DNA of 40,172 nucleotides from an uncultured Clostridia bacterium. GTDB taxonomy: Bacteria; Bacillota; Clostridia; Oscillospirales; Ruminococcaceae. Numbering within the stretch: the stretch's first letter is position 1; every line of letters begins with the position of its first letter. Location: the NCBI GenBank assembly GCA_947624555.1, contig CANQKW010000012.1, positions 1-40,172 on the forward strand. The letters are read 5' to 3'. This document shows, one piece after another, positions 5,217-37,934 of this stretch. The position numbers and the translations under genes are program-made. The notes under the pieces were generated by a model. It did no database searches and was not told where the DNA came from. It saw nothing but the letters and a program-made list of their open reading frames with translations.

Positions 5217-5451
5217 TTTTCAAACCCGGCGCCGCGTCACGTTTAGGCGGGAATGTTTGGAGTGACGGCATCGCGCCAACGCTTACCGCTGAATTTAGCG
5301 ATAACATTCCCGCCTTATGCTTGGAAAACCATCCTCAAGACAGCCGCGTTGACTATGCAAAAGACAATGTGGTGCAGACTTTAAGCGCTAAAATGGGGAC
5401 CGGGGGGGCAACGTGCCACTAATAATGGAAAGGAAAAATAACACCGAATGA
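5210..5451 (+). pseudogene. Out-of-frame continuation of the cytosine methyltransferase
   Basis: Coding continues after the C8 tract in the -1 frame, with the segments FKPGAASRLGG, IAPTLTAEFSDN and VVQTLSAKMGTGG. At a G7 tract (5402-5408) the frame breaks again: the current frame stops at 5422, while another -1 step gives GGNVPLIME and a TGA at 5449-5451 that overlaps the ATG of the next gene. Both breaks are one base at a G or C homopolymer. They may be assembly errors, slippage-prone contingency tracts or ribosomal slippage; C_CCC_CCC at 5204-5210 has a classical slippery form. If corrected, 4365-5451 would be one gene. Confidence 0.7.
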
Positions 5452-6377
5452 ATACCGAAAAAGAACGCCTCGCAATTTTATATTTGCGGGATTTTGAGCC
5501 GAAAGACGACGATCGGGGCTATTATTTATGCTATTCCGGCGGCAAAGACAGCGACGCAATACGGATTTTGGCCCAGCTTGCGGGGGTTAAGCACGAATGT
5601 AAACACAGCTTAACAACTGTTGACGCCCCGGAATCCGTGCGCTACGTCCAAAAAACAATAGGCCGGGAAAACATAGAAATCCCCCCCCTCTCAATGTGGC
5701 AGCTTATCGTAAAAAAGGGTATGCCGCCGACGCGCCTTGTGCGCTACTGTTGTGAACACTTGAAAGAACGCGGCGGCGCGGGGCGGTTGAAAATAACCGG
5801 CGTGCGTGCTGCTGAAAGTGTGGAGCGCGCGAAAAACGCGGCGGATATAAAGATTATCGGAAAGCCGAAAACAACACAAAAGTTGGCTGACGAAAACGGC
5901 GCAATTTATCGCGTGACCGACAAAGGCGGCCTCGCCTTGAACTTTGACGACGCCGCCGGGCGCCGTTTGGTTGAAAGGTGCTACCGAACTACAATGACAA
6001 TGATAAACCCCATTATTGATTGGACGGATCAAGACGTGTGGGAATTTTTAAGGCATTATGGGTGCGAGGCAAACCCCTTGTATCAATGTGGATTTAAGCG
6101 CGTCGGGTGCATTGGTTGTCCGATGGCGCGCCCCAGATACCGAAAACACGAATTTGCTTTATACCCGAAATATCGGCAGCTTTACGTTAAAGCCTTTGAC
6201 CGTATGCTTGAACACAATGTGGCAAAGGACCGGACGTATAAGCAGCATTGGAAAACCGGCGAGGACGTTTTGCGTTGGTGGTTGGAGGACGATCCCTCGC
6301 AAATAACGCTTGACGACCTGGAAGAAATGGCCGCCTACGCGGGCGAGGACCTTAACGAATGGCGGGGGCTTTACTGA
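5448..6377 (+). CDS. PAPS-reductase-family protein (PP-loop, iron-sulfur)
   Basis: This is a 309-aa member of the phosphoadenosine phosphosulfate reductase family of ATP pyrophosphatases. The PP-loop SGGKDS is at residues 30-35. Cysteines C101-C102 (RYCCEHLKE) and C214, C221 and C224 (CGFKRVGCIGCP) resemble the 4Fe-4S ligands of this group. Known relatives activate substrates with ATP or move sulfur; DndC of the phosphorothioation pathway belongs to the same superfamily. No other dnd genes are present, so that role is not supported. The gene sits exactly between the two halves of the permuted cytosine methyltransferase: it starts by ATGA overlap with the first half and ends one codon before the second. 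Confidence 0.88.
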   Translation: MNTEKERLAILYLRDFEPKDDDRGYYLCYSGGKDSDAIRILAQLAGVKHECKHSLTTVDAPESVRYVQKTIGRENIEIPPLSMWQLIVKKGMPPTRLVRYCCEHLKERGGAGRLKITGVRAAESVERAKNAADIKIIGKPKTTQKLADENGAIYRVTDKGGLALNFDDAAGRRLVERCYRTTMTMINPIIDWTDQDVWEFLRHYGCEANPLYQCGFKRVGCIGCPMARPRYRKHEFALYPKYRQLYVKAFDRMLEHNVAKDRTYKQHWKTGEDVLRWWLEDDPSQITLDDLEEMAAYAGEDLNEWRGLY

Positions 6378-31364: not shown

Positions 31365-31986
31365 ACAGCTTATAAACTATTTACCGCCGGTCCTCCGTGA
31401 AATCGCTGAATTTCGGGCGATAAACGACGCAATGCAACCGGAAATTGAGGCCGCTTGGACCGCCGCCGCGCGCGTGCTTGCAAATCAGTTTTTAACCACC
31501 GCCGACGAAACCGGCGTTAAGCGGTGGGAATCGGAATTGCGGATTTTCCCGAAAGATACGGACACGTTGGACGCGCGGAAAGCGCGAATAAAGGCCGTGT
31601 GGAACCGTGAATTGCCGTACACTTTCGTGTGGTTGAAAAATTGGCTTTCCAGCCTTTGCGGACCGGACGGACACACCGAAAGCGTCAACGACTATATTAT
31701 TGACGTGCAGCTCGACTATAACGCCCTCCCGCAAGCAAATGACTTGTCACGGGAAATCCTCGAAATGCTGCTTAACATACGCCCCGAAAATATGCTTATT
31801 CGGCTTACGGCGGCGTTACAGTCCACGGGGCGCCTTGCGCAAGGCGCTTTTATTGAAATTTCAAACACCGTTGAGGTGTGGCCGCGCATTGTGAACAACT
31901 TGGAATCGCACGGAACGGCCGGAATTAAAGGCGTGGTTGAACTTAACCGCGCGTTTGAAATATTTCCCCAGGAGGTAACAGAATGA
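31357..31986 (+). CDS. Baseplate/tail-fibre connector, DUF2313 (XkdU-like)
   Basis: This 209-aa protein matches the DUF2313/YmfQ family of baseplate gpI-like proteins. It has INYLPPVLREIAEFRAINDA, FLTTADETGVKRWESELRIF, DTLDARKARIKAVWNRELPY and a conserved NIRPENMLIRL. It lies between baseplate J and the fibre genes, the gpI position, and links wedge to fibre. Confidence 0.9.
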   Translation: MDRQLINYLPPVLREIAEFRAINDAMQPEIEAAWTAAARVLANQFLTTADETGVKRWESELRIFPKDTDTLDARKARIKAVWNRELPYTFVWLKNWLSSLCGPDGHTESVNDYIIDVQLDYNALPQANDLSREILEMLLNIRPENMLIRLTAALQSTGRLAQGAFIEISNTVEVWPRIVNNLESHGTAGIKGVVELNRAFEIFPQEVTE

Positions 31987-32771
31987 GTGAAAGAACGTAT
32001 AGCACAATAATTACAGACGAGGGCGCGGCGCTGATCGCGCAATGCGTCCTTGAGGGGCGTATGCTTGAAATCACCGAGGCGGCGGCCGGCGACGGCGGCG
32101 GCGCATATTACCAGCCCACAACAGACCAGACAGCCCTCCGGCGTGAGTGCTGGCGCGGTGAAATTGCGGGCTATGCGTTAAGCGAATACGCGCCGAATAT
32201 GCTTGACGTCAAGATTATTATTGATGACGCGGTGGGCGGCTTTACAATTCGGGAAATGGGCCTTTTCACCGACGAGGGCATTATGGTTGCGGTGTGCAAT
32301 ACGCCCGACACCGAAAAAGTATCTATCACCGGCGGCATACCGGGGCGGCTTACAATGGTTATGCACATAATCGTTGCGGACGCAAGCGTTATTGAAATAA
32401 CCATAAACCCCGAATTGGACGTTGTGACGCCGGAACAGTTGGCCGCCGAAATCGCCGCGCACAACAACAGCGCCACAAGTCACCAGGATATACGCGCGCT
32501 TGCGCTTAACTCTTTGCAGCGCGGCGACGCATACACAACCGCGGAAAGTGACGAAATGACCGCCGAGGCTATAAGCACGCACAACGCAAACCCCGCGGCG
32601 CATCCGGCCTTACAGATAAACGCCGCGGACATAAGCAGCCGCCTCAACACGCTTGAATTAAAATTCGGCACCAACATCACCGCAAACCCGTTTTCTGTTG
32701 ATTTTGCGACGCTTACCGGCTTGACCGTCACGGGCGTTTATAATTCCGAGATGGCGAGGATTGAGTGGTAA
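31983..32771 (+). CDS. Tail fibre / collar protein (DUF3751-like)
   Basis: This 262-aa protein starts like phage tail-collar fibre proteins (TIITDEGAALIAQCVLEGRM, then an AAAGDGGGAYYQPT stretch and RREMGLF-like IREMGLFTDEGIMVAV). The C-terminal third has HNNSATSHQDIRALAL and HNANPAAHPALQ units, common fibre-shaft motifs. A short end domain follows (NSEMARIEW). It probably attaches the receptor-binding parts, including the DGR-diversified protein encoded four genes on. Confidence 0.88.
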   Translation: MSERTYSTIITDEGAALIAQCVLEGRMLEITEAAAGDGGGAYYQPTTDQTALRRECWRGEIAGYALSEYAPNMLDVKIIIDDAVGGFTIREMGLFTDEGIMVAVCNTPDTEKVSITGGIPGRLTMVMHIIVADASVIEITINPELDVVTPEQLAAEIAAHNNSATSHQDIRALALNSLQRGDAYTTAESDEMTAEAISTHNANPAAHPALQINAADISSRLNTLELKFGTNITANPFSVDFATLTGLTVTGVYNSEMARIEW

Positions 32772-33319
32772 TGCCGAATTATGATATTATACCGCTTGCG
32801 GTTGACCTGGTGGACTATACAATGCAGCGCGTCAAGGCGAAAGAGCCGGAATATATTCCGGTGCGCGCCTACGCAACGCCGGGCGGCGGAGCCGAAAAAG
32901 AAATGCTGCTTTATGAAAAATCAAAAACAGATGGAAAACCTCATTTTCCAAAAGCTCAAACATTCCACCTTTGCAAGCGGCTTGAGGATTGCGCCGTTAC
33001 GATCCTGGAAAAGTGCATTTCGGCTGACGGGCGCTATTTTGAAACCGAATACGAGGACCGGCTGAAAGACTTAAACGAGGTGCTTGTCGCTTGTTCTGCA
33101 ATGCAGCAATATATAAATCTTGCGTACAAGCGGAAATATATCACCGGCGATCAATGCGCTTATTGGGGCGAATTGTTGCGCCCTATTCGTCAAAAGGCTT
33201 TCGCCTGGCGCCGGAATGACAGCAACCGCGCCGCGGCTATGCGCGAGGCAAAGGACGCACAAAACCTCGCCAAAACCGCCGAAATGGCACGGGAAATCGC
33301 AAAAGCCTTAAAGGAATAA
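32771..33319 (+). CDS. avd: DGR accessory variability determinant (Avd-like)
   Basis: This 182-aa protein has the size-class and helical pattern of Avd-type DGR accessory proteins: HLCKRLEDCAVTILEKCISA, then YFETEYEDRLKDLNEVLVAC, QQYINLAYKRKYITGDQCAY and GELLRPIRQKAFAWRR, consistent with a basic four-helix bundle. Avd binds the DGR reverse transcriptase and RNA and is needed for mutagenic homing in the Bordetella system. ATG 32771 forms TAATG with the previous stop; GTG 32765 is a possible start. It stands directly before the template repeat. The N-terminal extension (about 50 residues, with AYATPGGGAEKE) is longer than in classic Avd. Confidence 0.85.
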   Translation: MPNYDIIPLAVDLVDYTMQRVKAKEPEYIPVRAYATPGGGAEKEMLLYEKSKTDGKPHFPKAQTFHLCKRLEDCAVTILEKCISADGRYFETEYEDRLKDLNEVLVACSAMQQYINLAYKRKYITGDQCAYWGELLRPIRQKAFAWRRNDSNRAAAMREAKDAQNLAKTAEMAREIAKALKE

Positions 33320-33362
33320 CCGGTTTTTTAACCGTTATTTGGGGTTCGGTCCGTTATAATTG

Positions 33363-33470
33363 CGCGCTCCCCGAACACGAACAACACCAACAACGTGTGG
33401 AACTTGAATACGAATGGTAATCTTAACAACAACAACGCCAACAACACCAACGGCGCGCGCCCCGCTTTGA
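33363..33470 (+). repeat. DGR template repeat (TR)
   Basis: This 108-bp noncoding repeat aligns without gaps to 35178-35285 at a constant offset of 1815. There are 96 identities and 12 mismatches, and every mismatch is an adenine here (G seven times and T five times in the variable copy). By hand count it contains 37 adenines. In the frame of the target gene it reads mostly AAC/AAT Asn codons (14 of the codons between 33372 and 33449), the usual DGR design that allows many residues but no stop. It ends in a 15-bp G+C-only run (33451-33465), the likely initiation region. Confidence 0.95.
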
Positions 33471-33692
33471 TGGTTAGGTTAGACATAGTAGGCCCAAAGC
33501 CCAAAACAACACCGTCCATCTTTCAAAGGGGACCGAATCCCGCCTTGCAAGAGGCAAACACAATGTATTGATACCGCCCCGCTGCACAAGACAGCGCGGT
33601 CGTTATCGGTTCTATTTGCGCACGGCCGAAACAATACTTATGAGGCGACGGGGTGGGCGTAAAAATAGGCCCCGTCCAGAGGACAAACGAAA
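33471..33692 (+). ncRNA. DGR RNA spacer between template repeat and RT
   Basis: These 222 bases have no supported gene. Two hairpins are visible: ACCGC (33573-33577)/GCGGT (33596-33600) enclosing GCTG/CAGC with loop CACAAGA, and GACGGGG (33647-33653)/CCCCGTC (33670-33676) just before the RT ribosome site. In the Bordetella DGR, sequence downstream of TR is part of the RNA that binds RT-Avd and primes cDNA synthesis. I infer the same role here. The exact RNA ends are unknown. Upstream, 33320-33362 has a small CGGTT/AACCG hairpin after avd and a TATAAT at 33355. Confidence 0.6.
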
Positions 33693-34736
33693 TTGTTAAA
33701 TTTCGATGAAATATGCACATTTGACGTCATTTATAAAGCGTATTGCAGCGCGCGGCGCGGGAAACGTTCGCGGGCCGCCACAATTCAATATGAATTACGG
33801 CTGATCGAAAACATTGTAAACCTAATTTATGTGCTTAAAACAAAAACGTATTACCCCGGACAATTCCGCGTGTTTTACGTTTATGAGCCGAAAAAGCGGC
33901 TTGTACAAGCACCGGCATTTCGTGATAAAGTCGTACAACACGCGCTGGTTGATAATTGCGTATATGAACGCATAACAAACAGCTTTATTTATGACAGTTA
34001 CGCAAGCCAAATTGACAAAGGCTTGCACCTCGGCCTCGATAGGCTGAAAAACTTTTTAACCCGCTATTATCGGAAATATCACACGGCCGACGGCTGGATT
34101 TTGAAATGTGACGTGCGGCACTTTTTCGCCAGCATAGACCACGAAAAATTAAAGCAAAAGTTGTCACGGCTCGACCTGGAACCGCGAATTTACGAATTGC
34201 TTTGCGTTTATATTGATTGCGCCGACGGTTTGCCGCTGGGTTATCAGACCTCGCAATTATTCGCATTGTACTTCCTTGATGATATGGACCATTTCATTAA
34301 AGAGAAATTGCACATCGAATTTTACGGGCGCTTTATGGACGATTTTTGTTTGGTATTTCCGGAAAAAGAATACTTGCAATTCTGCTTGTGCGAAATTCGG
34401 GCAATGCTCGACGTTTACGGGCTGGAATTGAACGAGAAAACGCAGCTTTTCCCGCTGAAAAACGGCATTGATTTTCTTGGTTTTCATACCTACCTAACCG
34501 ACACCGGCAAAGTAATTCGCAAGCTACGACACACCAGCGTTAAGAAAATCAAAGCGAATTTGCGGAAATGGGCGGTTGATTATCCCGCCGGGCGAATTTC
34601 CCGTGAAAAGATTTTGCAAAGATGGCAAAGCTGGGATGCGCACGCATCCTACGGCGACACCTGGAAATTGCGCCAGCAAGTACACGACCAGGTGGAAAAC
34701 ATATTAAAGGAGGTTGTTGAATGGCAACGACATTAG
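33693..34736 (+). CDS. DGR reverse transcriptase
   Basis: This 347-aa reverse transcriptase has the catalytic Asp of motif 3 in LKCDVRHFFASIDH (D140) and the YxDD-equivalent FMDD (214-217, in YGRFMDDFCLVF). Motif 4 reads LPLGYQTSQ (180-188), the [I/L/V]GxxxSQ signature that distinguishes DGR RTs from group II intron and retron RTs, which have QG...SP. RVFYVYEPKKRLVQAPAFRDK is the N-terminal RT motif region. There is no thumb extension or maturase domain. The start is TTG 33693 with AGAGGA (33678-33683) upstream; no ATG is in frame near the N-terminus. It copies the TR RNA with adenine-specific errors. Confidence 0.96.
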   Translation: MLNFDEICTFDVIYKAYCSARRGKRSRAATIQYELRLIENIVNLIYVLKTKTYYPGQFRVFYVYEPKKRLVQAPAFRDKVVQHALVDNCVYERITNSFIYDSYASQIDKGLHLGLDRLKNFLTRYYRKYHTADGWILKCDVRHFFASIDHEKLKQKLSRLDLEPRIYELLCVYIDCADGLPLGYQTSQLFALYFLDDMDHFIKEKLHIEFYGRFMDDFCLVFPEKEYLQFCLCEIRAMLDVYGLELNEKTQLFPLKNGIDFLGFHTYLTDTGKVIRKLRHTSVKKIKANLRKWAVDYPAGRISREKILQRWQSWDAHASYGDTWKLRQQVHDQVENILKEVVEWQRH

Positions 34737-35938
34737 GCGCAAAAACAGTAGGCAGCATTATAAAGCTGAAAGAAAACAACACGCTTGTTGACTTTTACGT
34801 TTGCAAGCACAATTACGAAAGCGGCTTAAACGGCAACGGGCGCACGCTGGTTGTACGCAAGGATTGTTACGATCAGCGGCAATGGGAGGCCGACAATATC
34901 AACGCTTACGCCATAAGTGATATTGATACCTGGTTAAACAGCACTTATAAAAATTTGCTTGATCCGGATATTCGCACCGTGGCCGGCACAACAAAATTCT
35001 ACTACACGCCCGACAATAACAATAACACCGTCACGACGCTTGAAAGAACGTGCTTTTTGCTTTCGGGTGCAGAGTTAGGACAGACACATCAATATATGAA
35101 AACCGAGGGTTCCGCACTTTCGATCGTTGACACGCTGAAAATTGCGTATTTGAACGGATCGGCGGTTGTACAATGGACGCGCTCCCCGAGCACGAACAGC
35201 ACCGGCAACGTGTGGTACTTGAATTCGAATGGTGATCTTAGCAACTACTACGCCAGCAACACCTACGGCGCGCGCCCCGCTTTGACTCTCCCCTCCACCC
35301 TCTCCGTTAGCGATGATGGTACCGTGACCGTCAACACCGCGCCGACAATTTCAAGCAGCACCGCCAGCGGCTCAAACCTCGGCACCAAAACCGACGGTTT
35401 TAATTTCGTGTACACCGTAAACGACGCCGACGGCGACACCGTGACCGTTAAGGAATACCTCGACAATGTGCTTAAACGCACATTCACGGCGACGCGCGGC
35501 GCAAATAACACATTCCAGGCCGTAACCGCGGAGAATTGGCAGACGGTCCTCAACGGCGCACACACCATCAAGGTTATTGCGAATGACGGAAAGGCCGACA
35601 GCGCGCCGTACACGGTATCATTCACAAAGCGCGTCACGACCGCAACCGTAACGCTGACAACGCCGTTGACCGCTGACGATCAAATTGCGGCAATGGTGCT
35701 GACGCTTACCGGTTCCATTCCCGACGACACGGATATTGAGGTGCTTGTCACCAACAACGCGAATGACCCCTCGCCCGTGTGGGAGGACGCAACCGCGGAC
35801 GTGAAAAACAAGTTAAACCACGTTTTCACAAACCACACCGCCGCGCGCGGCTTTGCTTTCAATTTCCGCTTGACGCTTTCGCGCGGATCGTCGGATATAG
35901 GCGGAAATCTGACAAACATCGGAGGTGCATTTGACTAA
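34721..35938 (+). CDS. DGR target: variable tail-tip/receptor-binding protein
   Basis: This 405-aa protein has three parts. Residues 1-190 look like a DUF6273/C-type-lectin-like domain (YAISDIDTWLNSTYKNLL, TRSPS...NVWYLNSNGD, GARPALTLPS). About 205-305 is an Ig-like beta domain (FNFVYTVNDADGDTVTVKEY). The rest is a tail-associated end (PVWEDATADVKNKLNHVFTN ... NIGGAFD). The variable repeat lies in the first domain, residues 153-188, so it is internal rather than at the C-terminus as in the classic major tropism determinant. The gene starts inside the end of the RT gene (16-base overlap) with AAAGGAGG upstream. It probably contacts the host surface. Confidence 0.93.
   Translation: MATTLGAKTVGSIIKLKENNTLVDFYVCKHNYESGLNGNGRTLVVRKDCYDQRQWEADNINAYAISDIDTWLNSTYKNLLDPDIRTVAGTTKFYYTPDNNNNTVTTLERTCFLLSGAELGQTHQYMKTEGSALSIVDTLKIAYLNGSAVVQWTRSPSTNSTGNVWYLNSNGDLSNYYASNTYGARPALTLPSTLSVSDDGTVTVNTAPTISSSTASGSNLGTKTDGFNFVYTVNDADGDTVTVKEYLDNVLKRTFTATRGANNTFQAVTAENWQTVLNGAHTIKVIANDGKADSAPYTVSFTKRVTTATVTLTTPLTADDQIAAMVLTLTGSIPDDTDIEVLVTNNANDPSPVWEDATADVKNKLNHVFTNHTAARGFAFNFRLTLSRGSSDIGGNLTNIGGAFD
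35178..35285 (+). repeat. DGR variable repeat (VR)
   Basis: VR is the mutable copy of the template at 33363-33470. The 12 substitutions fall in 11 codons (residues 157, 160, 162, 166, 169, 172, 174, 176, 177, 179 and 182) and all change the amino acid: Asn or Thr in the template becomes Ser, Gly, Tyr or Asp. Trp165 and the flanking GARPAL are fixed. The last 23 bases (35265-35285, including the G+C run 35266-35280) are identical to TR, as expected for the site where cDNA synthesis and homing begin. Identity stops sharply at both edges. Confidence 0.95.
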
Positions 35939-36408
35939 TGGGAATTGTAGCAGAAACCACAAGTTTGAAAGCGCTGAATAAGCAGAAACGCTATAATCAG
36001 CAATTACAAGACGCGGCGGCGATCGCCTTTGTCACAATGGCCGAAAACGGCCAGATCGACGACGTGACCGCCTCGGAGCAAATGGAGATTTTCGCAGAGT
36101 GGGAGCCGGGCGTAAATTATACCGTCGGGCAAATGCGCAAATATAACGACAAGTTGTATAAGTGCGTCCAGGCTCACACCTCGCAGCCCGATTGGACGCC
36201 GGAGGCGGCCGCGTCCTTATGGGCTATAACAAGCGACCCCGCCGAGGAATGGCCCGAATGGAGCCAGCCGGTAGGCGCACACGACGCTTACGCGCTGGGC
36301 GCAAAAGTTACGCACGGCGGAAAGCATTATATTTCCGCCGTTGATAACAATGTGTGGGAACCCGGCGCGGCGGGCATCGGCTCCAACATTTGGGCGGACC
36401 AGACATAA
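35938..36408 (+). CDS. Tail protein with two carbohydrate-binding (CBM5/12-type) modules
   Basis: This 156-aa protein has a short helical N-terminus (about 1-55) like XkdW-type tail proteins, then two chitin-binding type 3-like modules. The first, about residues 58-102, has WEPGVNYTVGQMRKYNDKLY and YKCVQAHTSQPDWTP. The second, about 108-156, has WSQPVGAHDAYALGAKVTHG and NVWEPGAAG. Each has the spaced aromatic residues of that fold. ATG overlaps the DGR target stop (TAATG), so the two are probably made together, and it may bind cell-surface glycans. Confidence 0.85.
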   Translation: MGIVAETTSLKALNKQKRYNQQLQDAAAIAFVTMAENGQIDDVTASEQMEIFAEWEPGVNYTVGQMRKYNDKLYKCVQAHTSQPDWTPEAAASLWAITSDPAEEWPEWSQPVGAHDAYALGAKVTHGGKHYISAVDNNVWEPGAAGIGSNIWADQT

Positions 36409-36423
36409 AAGGAGGGCTACGCT

Positions 36424-36867
36424 ATGAAAGAATGGATTTGCACCGCGATCGGCGCGGTGGGCGCGTTTATTTCGACCGCTTTCGGCGGTTGGAGTGCGGC
36501 GCTTACCACGCTTTGCGTTTTTATGGTGATTGATTATGTTACGGGGCTTATTGTCGCCGGCGTTTTCAAAAACTCCGAAAAAACCGAAACCGGCGGAATG
36601 GAAAGCCGCGCGGGCTGGAAAGGCATTTGCAGAAAGGGCGTATCCCTTTTAATTGTGCTTGTGGCCGCGCGGCTTGATCTGGCGGTGGGCGCAACATTCA
36701 TAAAAGACGGCGTTGTTATTGCCTTTATTGCGAATGAAACTATTTCGATCATAGAAAACACCGGGTTGATGGGTATTCCCATCCCCGGCGTAATTATGCG
36801 CGCGATCGACGTATTGCAGAAAAAGGCCAACAGCGACAAAACCGACGACAAGGAGGATAAAAAATAA
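36424..36867 (+). CDS. Holin (phage holin family, TcdE/toxin-secretion type)
   Basis: This 147-aa protein has membrane segments at about 5-22 (AIGAVGAFISTAFGGW), 25-45 (ALTTLCVFMVIDYVTGLIVA), 65-82 and 90-110, and the DYVTGL and GMESRAGWKGICRKGV motif seen in Firmicute holins of the TcdE/Cph1 kind. A charged C-terminus (NSDKTDDKEDKK) follows. Directly before the endolysin, it would time membrane permeabilisation. Confidence 0.9.
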   Translation: MKEWICTAIGAVGAFISTAFGGWSAALTTLCVFMVIDYVTGLIVAGVFKNSEKTETGGMESRAGWKGICRKGVSLLIVLVAARLDLAVGATFIKDGVVIAFIANETISIIENTGLMGIPIPGVIMRAIDVLQKKANSDKTDDKEDKK

Positions 36868-37934
36868 TGGCAAACACAAACCTTAAAGGCGTTGACATTT
36901 CCTCGTACCAGACCGGCATCCCGTTTGACAAGCTCAAAGAGGCGGGCGTTGACTTTGTTATTATACGCGCGGGTTGCGGAAAGAACAAAGACAAGCAGCT
37001 TGAAAAGTTTGTTGAGGAATGTGAAAAGCGCAAAATCCCTTACGGCGTTTACGTTTATTCCTACGCGCTGACGCCGGAACGCGCAAAAGAGGAGGCCGAG
37101 GCTTGCTTGCAGAATATCAGCAAGTTGAAATACAAGCCGGTTTATCCCATATACTACGACATTGAGGATAAGTCGCAGATCAGCAACCTCACAACGCGCA
37201 CAAGAACCGATATGGTACACGCCTTTTGCGGCGTTATCAGCGCGGCGGGGTATAAACCCGGCGTGTATGCAAGCCCCTCTTGGTTTAACAATTTCTTGTA
37301 TAAGGCGGAAATCATAAACACTTATGACGTGTGGCTTGCGCATTGGACGGAGGACCCGAACCGTCCGAGCAGCTACAAGGCAAACCAGCGCGTGTGGCAA
37401 TGGGGGTTAGACCACATCGCCGGATATAACGTTGACGGCGACCGCGGCTTTTATGACTATGCAGCCGAAAGCGGCGCGCCCGCACCGGAGCCGGAAAAGC
37501 CGGTTGTCCTCCCGACGATCATTGAACGCGGCGACACGGTTTATTTCAAGGGCGGCCCGCATTATGGCCGGTCCATAGACAAAACCCCCGTGGGCGGCAC
37601 CAGGACCGCGGGCCTCGCGCGTGTGTTCAACATTGCCGAGGGCGCACCGCATAAATACGCGCTTATGCCCGTTGAGGGCGGCTCCAACGTTTACGGCTGG
37701 GTTGACGAGGCGCTTGTAACCCCCATCGGGGAAACCGCGCTTGCGATTGGTGACGCCGTAAAAGTCAAGTCGGGCGCAAAAGACTATAAGGGCCGCGGGC
37801 TTGCGTCGTTTGTCTATCGCAATACATACACCGTTTTGCAGATAGGCGCGGGCGTTTACCCGGACTATATCGTTATCGGCATAAACGGCCAGGTTACGGC
37901 GGCGCTGCACGCCGAGGATTTAATTAAAGCATAA
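36867..37934 (+). CDS. Endolysin, glycoside hydrolase family 25 lysozyme
   Basis: This 355-aa muramidase begins with the GH25 motif KGVDISSYQTG (D10 catalytic), has the YYDIED acidic pair (D98, E100) and YGVYVYSYALTPERAKEEAE, and YDVWLAHWTEDPNRP with QRVWQWGLDHIAGYNVDGD closing the barrel. The catalytic domain ends near residue 200. A proline-rich linker (APAPEPEKPVVLP) leads to a C-terminal wall-binding region (about 220-355) of two similar halves around ERGDTVYFKGGPHYG and LAIGDAVKVKSGAKDYKG. No signal peptide, so export depends on the holin. Confidence 0.95.
   Translation: MANTNLKGVDISSYQTGIPFDKLKEAGVDFVIIRAGCGKNKDKQLEKFVEECEKRKIPYGVYVYSYALTPERAKEEAEACLQNISKLKYKPVYPIYYDIEDKSQISNLTTRTRTDMVHAFCGVISAAGYKPGVYASPSWFNNFLYKAEIINTYDVWLAHWTEDPNRPSSYKANQRVWQWGLDHIAGYNVDGDRGFYDYAAESGAPAPEPEKPVVLPTIIERGDTVYFKGGPHYGRSIDKTPVGGTRTAGLARVFNIAEGAPHKYALMPVEGGSNVYGWVDEALVTPIGETALAIGDAVKVKSGAKDYKGRGLASFVYRNTYTVLQIGAGVYPDYIVIGINGQVTAALHAEDLIKA

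Follow-up and report, generated by a model that had tools for sequence, protein, structure and literature searches.

The window analysed here, a stretch of 40,172 nucleotides, is the whole of one contig (C12 in our numbering; CANQKW010000012.1) from the genome assembly of an uncultured Clostridia bacterium of the Ruminococcaceae (GCA_947624555.1). On its forward strand lie the consecutive parts of a diversity-generating retroelement (DGR): an Avd-like gene, a template repeat (TR), a reverse transcriptase (RT) gene and a target gene with the variable repeat (VR) inside it (Table 1). An earlier note on this DNA had described these parts as contiguous, and all four were indeed found in a row.

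Table 1. Coordinates of the DGR parts and flanking genes in the window.
Feature	Position	Strand	Remarks
Tail-collar fibre N-terminal protein, neighbour outside the cassette	31983..32771	+	Pfam PF12571, 3.1e-38
Avd-like accessory protein	32771..33319	+	182 aa if started at ATG; GTG at 32765 is another possible start
TR	33363..33470	+	108 bp, 37 adenines; with VR the longest repeat pair within 32000-37000
Spacer RNA	33469..33573	+	structure covarying in relatives (27 loci including the window)
DGR RT	33693..34736	+	TTG start; LGYQTSQ about 34236-34256; FMDD 34332-34343
Putative ribosome-binding site, AAAGGAGG	34706..34713	+	ahead of the target gene, within the end of the RT gene; judged from sequence
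Target gene, tentaclin/Hoc-like	34721..35938	+	405 aa; Pfam, PHROG, AlphaFold2
DUF6273 domain of target	34835-35296	+	Pfam 2.4e-23
VR	35178..35285	+	target residues 153-188; includes model strands 163-167 and 173-177
7-base-periodic repeat (CTCTCCC CTCCACC CTCTCCG)	35286..35306	+	site of the 21-bp initiation of mutagenic homing (IMH) element in BPP-1
Ig-like domain of target	about 35333-35635	+	structural match
Strand-rich C-terminal domain of target	35636-35935	+	homologue of the tentaclin C-terminal Ig domain
CBM5/12 protein, neighbour outside the cassette	35938..36408	+	no VR found in it

Recomputing the repeat alignment gave the same result as the note: over 108 bp TR and VR differ at 12 positions, all 12 at TR adenines, with 7 A>G and 5 A>T changes. 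With adenine at 37 of the 108 TR positions, the probability that 12 random changes would all fall on A is 6.6e-7. The whole assembly (G000; 2.23 Mb in 89 contigs) yielded two full-length TR/VR matches, the other four rows being 15-20 nt long, and an adenine-blind scan of both window strands found 71 of 71 non-A positions matching at TR and VR alone, the next best site reaching 37. No third full-length copy was found in the assembly, and a second target or remote VR was rejected, as none was found in the assembly or on either window strand. When TR is read in the frame of the target, none of its 37 adenines falls at a third codon position and all 37 fall at positions 1-2 (P 3.8e-9). TR holds 16 AAY codons and no whole codon that A-mutation could convert to a stop, so that 20 codons (16 of them AAY) are open to change without stop creation, allowing about 1.7e21 possible proteins. 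This design of TR, in its adenine placement, its AAY codons and its freedom from stops, fits the working of a DGR. The missing A>C change in VR was dropped as a notable feature, since 15 of 129 loci, including the window, share it.

The RT matches PHROG 1423 (RT) at 1.1e-114, and the solved structure that it matches best is 8ub7 (E 1.3e-33, residues 4 to 332), which we take to be the BPP-1 enzyme. An xGxxxSQ motif is a hallmark of DGR-group RTs, and the LGYQTSQ of the window, beside the TR, recurs exactly in 33 of 163 RT matches (window counted); this set comes from the fetched loci, includes the window's own RT and retains duplicates. Among 43 genomes of its own genus the RT was found in two at 1e-40, one of them being the genome of the window itself. 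The Avd-like open reading frame (ORF) matches PHROG 3206, 'Avd protein of DGR' (4.9e-23), and no credible relative of its protein was found in the PDB. The identification as a DGR, its adenine mutagenesis and its past activity, all claimed in the earlier note, are backed by the TR/VR pattern, by the VRs of relatives and by the RT match to 8ub7.

Activity in relatives and the spacer RNA

Relatives (loci numbered with the prefix L) were compared in pairs whose RTs are at least 96% identical and whose TRs are identical over the compared stretch, giving 12 pairs in 8 groups of loci. The VRs differ in 11 of the 12 pairs, at TR adenines only save for one non-adenine change (L013/L015), and are the same in one pair (L025/L026). 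For example, L007 and L010, which belong to the clade nearest the window, are identical in RT (1026/1026), in the VR flanks (300/300 on each side) and in TR, and their VRs differ at 19 of 35 adenine sites and at 0 of 65 others. This recent A-only divergence indicates that the nearest-clade lineage has been active. It should be noted that loci entered the collection only if TR and VR showed three or more mismatches at A and no more than three elsewhere, a filter which does not act directly on a comparison of VR with VR; on account of this filter, no proof was drawn from the pooled A-specificity (1856 A changes and 43 others in 138 of 163 loci). Three rows with 1-6 aligned RT bases were dropped as fragment artefacts, and L094/L153, L008/L012 and L019/L095 were excluded from the identical-TR count, their TRs differing or misaligning. 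The nearest RT is about 73% identical to that of the window; because no near-identical relative was found, we can only infer the activity of the window copy.

The spacer RNA 3' of TR has a structure that covaries among relatives. RNAalifold, run on an alignment of 27 loci, gave 17 pairs, 11 of which are changed on both sides, and in helix 1 the last TR bases (33469-33473) pair with 33516-33520. In this structure 95.8% of cells are paired, as against 31-50% for slid structures; 59 cells are changed on both sides compared with 17.9 in shuffles, covariation is 0.408 compared with 0.191, and 0 of 500 shuffles are as high for four of five measures, in tests that are inflated by sequence kinship. 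Further pair types are not above shuffles (224/500). A covariance model (R1) was built from 25 loci and run on 73 unused sources, some of them near-copies of training loci, and gave 44 rows at E up to 1. Forty-one rows were checked against the TR table, and in 38 of them the match begins 11-14 bases ahead of the TR end, part of this signal being TR itself, since the model includes the last TR bases; of the other three, L108 starts 25 bases after the TR end, L077 has no TR in the table and L071 is one stray match. The rows of L172, L173 and L174 lie outside this comparison. Model R1 does not match BPP-1 at E up to 1; Rfam Phage_DGR scores 104.7 bits on the BPP-1 spacer.

At gathering level, Rfam gave no match in 14 loci; another 15 yielded a single one, to RT-14, which on L047 runs onward from the TR end. 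The Rfam family RT-2 scores 18.2 bits in the window (E 0.19; gathering score 40), which taken alone is at chance level, an unrelated match having E 0.24. With relaxed thresholds RT-2 was found in 3 of 6 loci, namely L099 (33.7 bits, E 0.00033), L103 (26.0 bits, 0.038) and L025 (20.7 bits, 0.97, chance level). The matches on L047 (5821-5953, RT-14), L099 (4845-5012) and L103 (4786-4955, both RT-2) begin at the TR end or close to it and largely occupy the TR-RT interval, and RT-2 and RT-14 may be DGR spacer RNAs.

We consider it very probable that the window carries a complete DGR in a contractile-tailed phage, diversifying a tentaclin-type target in its mid-gene DUF6273 domain. On the model of BPP-1, from which RNA priming, the part played by Avd and the integration of cDNA are carried over, an RNA containing TR and the structured spacer would be bound by RT and Avd and would prime synthesis; RT would copy TR, misreading adenines; and the resulting cDNA would be integrated in place of the VR, altering up to 20 codons without creating a stop.

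Several observations weigh against this interpretation. The matches of the Avd-like ORF to Pfam bAvd (3.4e-5) and NCBIfam Avd (3.4e-7) are both under cut-off, the window spacer folded singly is no better than shuffles (z -0.38), and no strong hairpin follows the VR (see below). An adenine-tolerant pattern for a sibling with the same TR gave 0 matches in viral_contigs. The fraction of TR adenines changed, 12 of 37, is the fifth lowest of 129 loci, as might be expected of a slow or dead copy. Finally, YxDD is the usual RT active-site box, and the 163 RT matches contain 148 YMDD, 6 YVDD, 1 YLDD, 1 FIDD and 6 unresolved boxes, the FMDD of the window occurring in none of the other 162. The unusual box, the lowish fraction of changed adenines and the lack of a sibling to show current activity would all fit a decayed DGR, in which past diversification was followed by loss of RT function and the 12 differences are a frozen trace. 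We regard such decay as improbable. The Avd, RT and target ORFs are open, every non-A position of TR and VR still matches and LGYQTSQ is kept; in the active-site box both Asp are kept, and the replacement of Tyr by Phe preserves the ring. Moreover, the four loci with still lower fractions of changed adenines (L045, L128, L027 and L096) are not called FMDD.

The diversified protein

The target had been taken for a tail-tip protein in the earlier note, an assignment that finds no support in its combination of DUF6273 and Ig-type domains, in the match of residues 201-404 to PHROG 10993 'Hoc-like head decoration' (1.5e-80) or in the Hoc-like annotation of its relative in phage FP_Brigit. The AlphaFold2 model of the target has a mean pLDDT of 92.6, and structural matches cover residues 2-206 and 205-305. 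The VR lies in the middle of the gene rather than at its 3' end, and it spans two neighbouring strands of the model within the DUF6273 part. Mtd and other lectin entries are absent from the list of structural matches, which is a weak test for the DUF6273 part, as 9qa6 alone covers it; the target matches no sequence in the PDB. DUF6273 has been described as C-type-lectin-like and N-terminal in tentaclins, whose C-terminal Ig domain is the presumed anchor (PMC10743442). Tentaclins are further characterised by a VR placed in a beta-hairpin and by a seven-residue consensus in that Ig domain. Sequence comparison supports a tentaclin/Hoc-like rather than a tail-tip identity for the target, with a putative link to the capsid drawn from the PHROG label and the annotation of the relative.

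Alternatively, the diversified protein could be a receptor-binding protein of the tail tip or tail fibre, acting in the manner of Mtd. The gene follows directly after the tail-collar fibre gene, in the late tail region, so that a tail position may be possible, and the diversified module is the one described as lectin-like. We find this alternative doubtful, if still a serious contender, because the C-terminal half of the target resembles head-decoration proteins, both in PHROG and in FP_Brigit, because the lectin-type domain is N-terminal with the presumed anchor at the other end, and because the target matched no tail or fibre family in the Pfam, PHROG and NCBIfam scans. The target may give the phage a variable host-contact surface, as the earlier note proposed; the published alternatives are binding of mucus, of intestinal cells or of immune cells (available text of PMC5883640; PMC10743442), and the tentaclin paper leaves both virion position and ligand open (PMC10743442).

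Three known systems come nearest to the window, of which BPP-1 is treated in the next section. Faecalibacterium phage FP_Brigit (MG711465.1; Cornuault 2018, PMC5883640) has the same succession of baseplate/tail genes, Avd-position gene, RT and Hoc-like target. Its RT is 51.6% identical to that of the window, its target is homologous in both halves (53% identity of the window target to the Hoc-like protein over 206 aligned C-terminal columns), and its VR is likewise mid-gene with no strong hairpin after it, although the FP_Brigit target has 617 aa compared with 405 in the window. The hypothetical protein in its Avd position (L173, 3971-4765) is a distant homologue, 30% identical to the window Avd over 106 residues; in the available text of PMC5883640, Avd homologues are reported for no phages other than Mushu and Lagaffe. 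The tentaclins of phages nd4 and nd12 (Baykov 2023, PMC10743442) also have an N-terminal DUF6273 with the VR and an Ig-type C-terminus, and the window target falls within their published range of 313-649 aa. Target 1 of nd12 aligns with the family profile over its length, and the C-terminal part of the window target is 39% identical to it over 217 columns. Phages nd4 and nd12 have two targets, whereas the window has one VR only. The window would add a further myovirus in which a protein of lectin type, bearing Ig domains, is hypervaried.

Hairpin and seven-base repeat beside the VR

The cassette itself is of a known kind; what merits attention is a pattern of the whole clade, in which homing does without a strong hairpin and a seven-base repeat is present. 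Bordetella phage BPP-1 is like the window in having an avd-position gene, TR and RT in a row, a homologous RT and a structured spacer RNA after TR. In BPP-1, however, the VR sits in the 3' end of mtd, ahead of RT, and an 8-bp GC hairpin with a GAAA loop comes after it, whereas in the window it lies mid-gene, downstream of RT, with no strong hairpin. A DNA hairpin or cruciform in this place is usual for DGRs but was not taken here as a defining trait. According to the available text of PMC3240598, a hairpin with GRNA loops near the VR 3' end of phage DGRs is a proposed conserved requirement for retrohoming; that of PMC3521204 ascribes it to 'a subset of DGRs'.

Perfect hairpins (stem 6-14, loop 3-8, perfect stems only) were scored as stem length plus G+C in the stem, from 20 bases before to 150 bases after the VR end. 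A score of at least 14 was counted as strong, and targets with a stop within 60 nt of the VR were classed as gene-end. The best perfect stem within 150 nt in the window scores 8, compared with 16 for the BPP-1 control. Strong hairpins occur in 61 of 86 gene-end loci (0/86 after shuffling) and in 0 of 39 mid-gene loci, of which one reaches 12 and five reach 10; without RT duplicates the counts are 50/68 and 0/33. These classes leave out L031, L034, L044 and L078, whose VRs fall between the definitions (L044 has a strong hairpin), and the 'end' label of L020 is due only to a contig stop. The loops of 44 of the 61 gene-end hairpins fit GRNA, which speaks against their being mere terminators at gene ends. 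The mid-gene loci fall mostly in one part of a quick RT tree (4 label changes, shuffled mean 31.8), so that the absence of the hairpin may be one event; six gene-end rows nested in this part score 16 (L038), 12 (L107), 11 (L035, L036, L039) and none (L037). Mid-gene loci vary their VRs (e.g., L093/L103, L016/L092, L013/L015) without any perfect stem of at least 6 bp found within 150 nt, and the proposed hairpin requirement therefore seems not to hold for every DGR.

At the 3' edge of the VR, in the place of the BPP-1 IMH element, which according to the available text of PMC3240598 sets direction, the mid-gene targets encode LPSSLLV- or NLKSSILV-like peptides with a DNA period of 7, out of codon step. 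Lag-7 identity is 0.540, compared with 0.308 for synonymous recodings (35 of 38 mid-gene loci; 0/300), with z 16.1 and the next lag at 4.8; this z comes from related sequences and is not a probability, and L101, L102 and L106, which have no VSD motif, were left out of the test. In 24 distinct mid-gene segments there are 10.8 lag-7 matches of 20 compared with 6.0 expected, and 19 of the segments have P <0.05 singly against synonymous recoding (P 0.006 for the window). Other places in the gene are near expectation, the largest excess being 7.7 compared with 5.9. The seven-base repeat runs across most of the set and is apparently kept by codon choice. In its seven repeat codons the window shares codon identity with four clade members at 6/7, compared with 41-54% in the rest of the gene.

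The repeat is also seen beside gene-end targets. If a locus is counted when no more than 2 of 200 dinucleotide shuffles attain its lag-7 value, the VR 3' edge passes in 18 of 35 mid-gene loci and in 43 of 68 gene-end loci. By the same criterion the respective counts are 5/35 and 1/68 for TR 3' flanks, 1/35 and 1/67 for VR 5' flanks, and 0/35 and 1/68 at 150 bases downstream; among the 68 gene-end loci, 19 pass at lag 8 as well. The DUF6273 genes of the genus were unusable as a control for the repeat, as their domain ends differ.

These patterns lead us to a tentative proposal, which we hold at somewhat less than even confidence. In a large, mostly Bacillota group of DGRs, three to four direct 7-nt units with a CTG/CTT/CTC core may make up the portion of the homing site that belongs to VR alone and corresponds to the 21-bp IMH of BPP-1. 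A hairpin, often with a GRNA loop, would follow the units in gene-end targets; in the mid-gene tentaclin clade, which includes the window, there would be no hairpin, and the codon-kept repeat alone would mark the target. The repeat could instead have arisen incidentally from coding, composition or shared descent, without being a working element of the DGR. Taken alone, the window repeat is weak (22/1000 dinucleotide shuffles reach its lag-7 value), BPP-1 has no repeat (393/1000), and the Aeromonas, Vibrio, ANMV-1 and Pseudoalteromonas phages, none of them from Bacillota, are mixed (199, 122, 13 and 7 of 500 shuffles). Five of the 24 segments miss P 0.05 (L169, L011, L013, L028 and L100), the first three being in the nearest clade of the window, and codon identity in the repeat drops to 2/5 and 2/4 against the more distant L103 and L092. 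A by-product nevertheless seems rather unlikely to us, given the fall in lag-7 identity upon synonymous recoding, the confinement of the excess to one place in the gene, and the presence of the repeat in gene-end targets too, likewise at the 3' edge of the VR, together with its rarity at TR flanks. The repeat is a concrete candidate for the mark of the target in DGRs that have no hairpin, and were homing able to proceed without one, a DGR could diversify a gene in its middle. Mention of a comparable 7-nt repeat was not found in the available text of PMC3240598 and PMC3521204 or in a limited literature search.

As a separate observation, gene-end loci such as L055, L137 and L131 have the repeat unit AACTG, at times TAACTGA. 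The unit resembles the unexplained TAACTGA direct repeats of Beggiatoaceae, Cyanobacteria and Bacteroidetes (PMC4679880), possibly by coincidence; the words 'retroelement' and 'reverse transcriptase' are absent from the available text of that paper.

Phage context

The contig codes for a DNA polymerase, helicases, terminase, portal, capsid, tail sheath, tape measure, baseplate parts, holin and endolysin, a gene set which indicates a contractile-tailed phage. The two contig ends share no exact overlap of 10-299 bases. None of the 37 ORFs scanned against PHROGs was named an integrase, the only 'integration and excision' label among them being a weak secondary match of a helicase (2.1e-7). Relatives occur in Bacillota, for instance in Butyricicoccus pullicaecorum (L089). 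The phage also carries a phosphoadenosine phosphosulfate reductase-like gene at 5448-6377 (PHROG 424, 1.7e-35).

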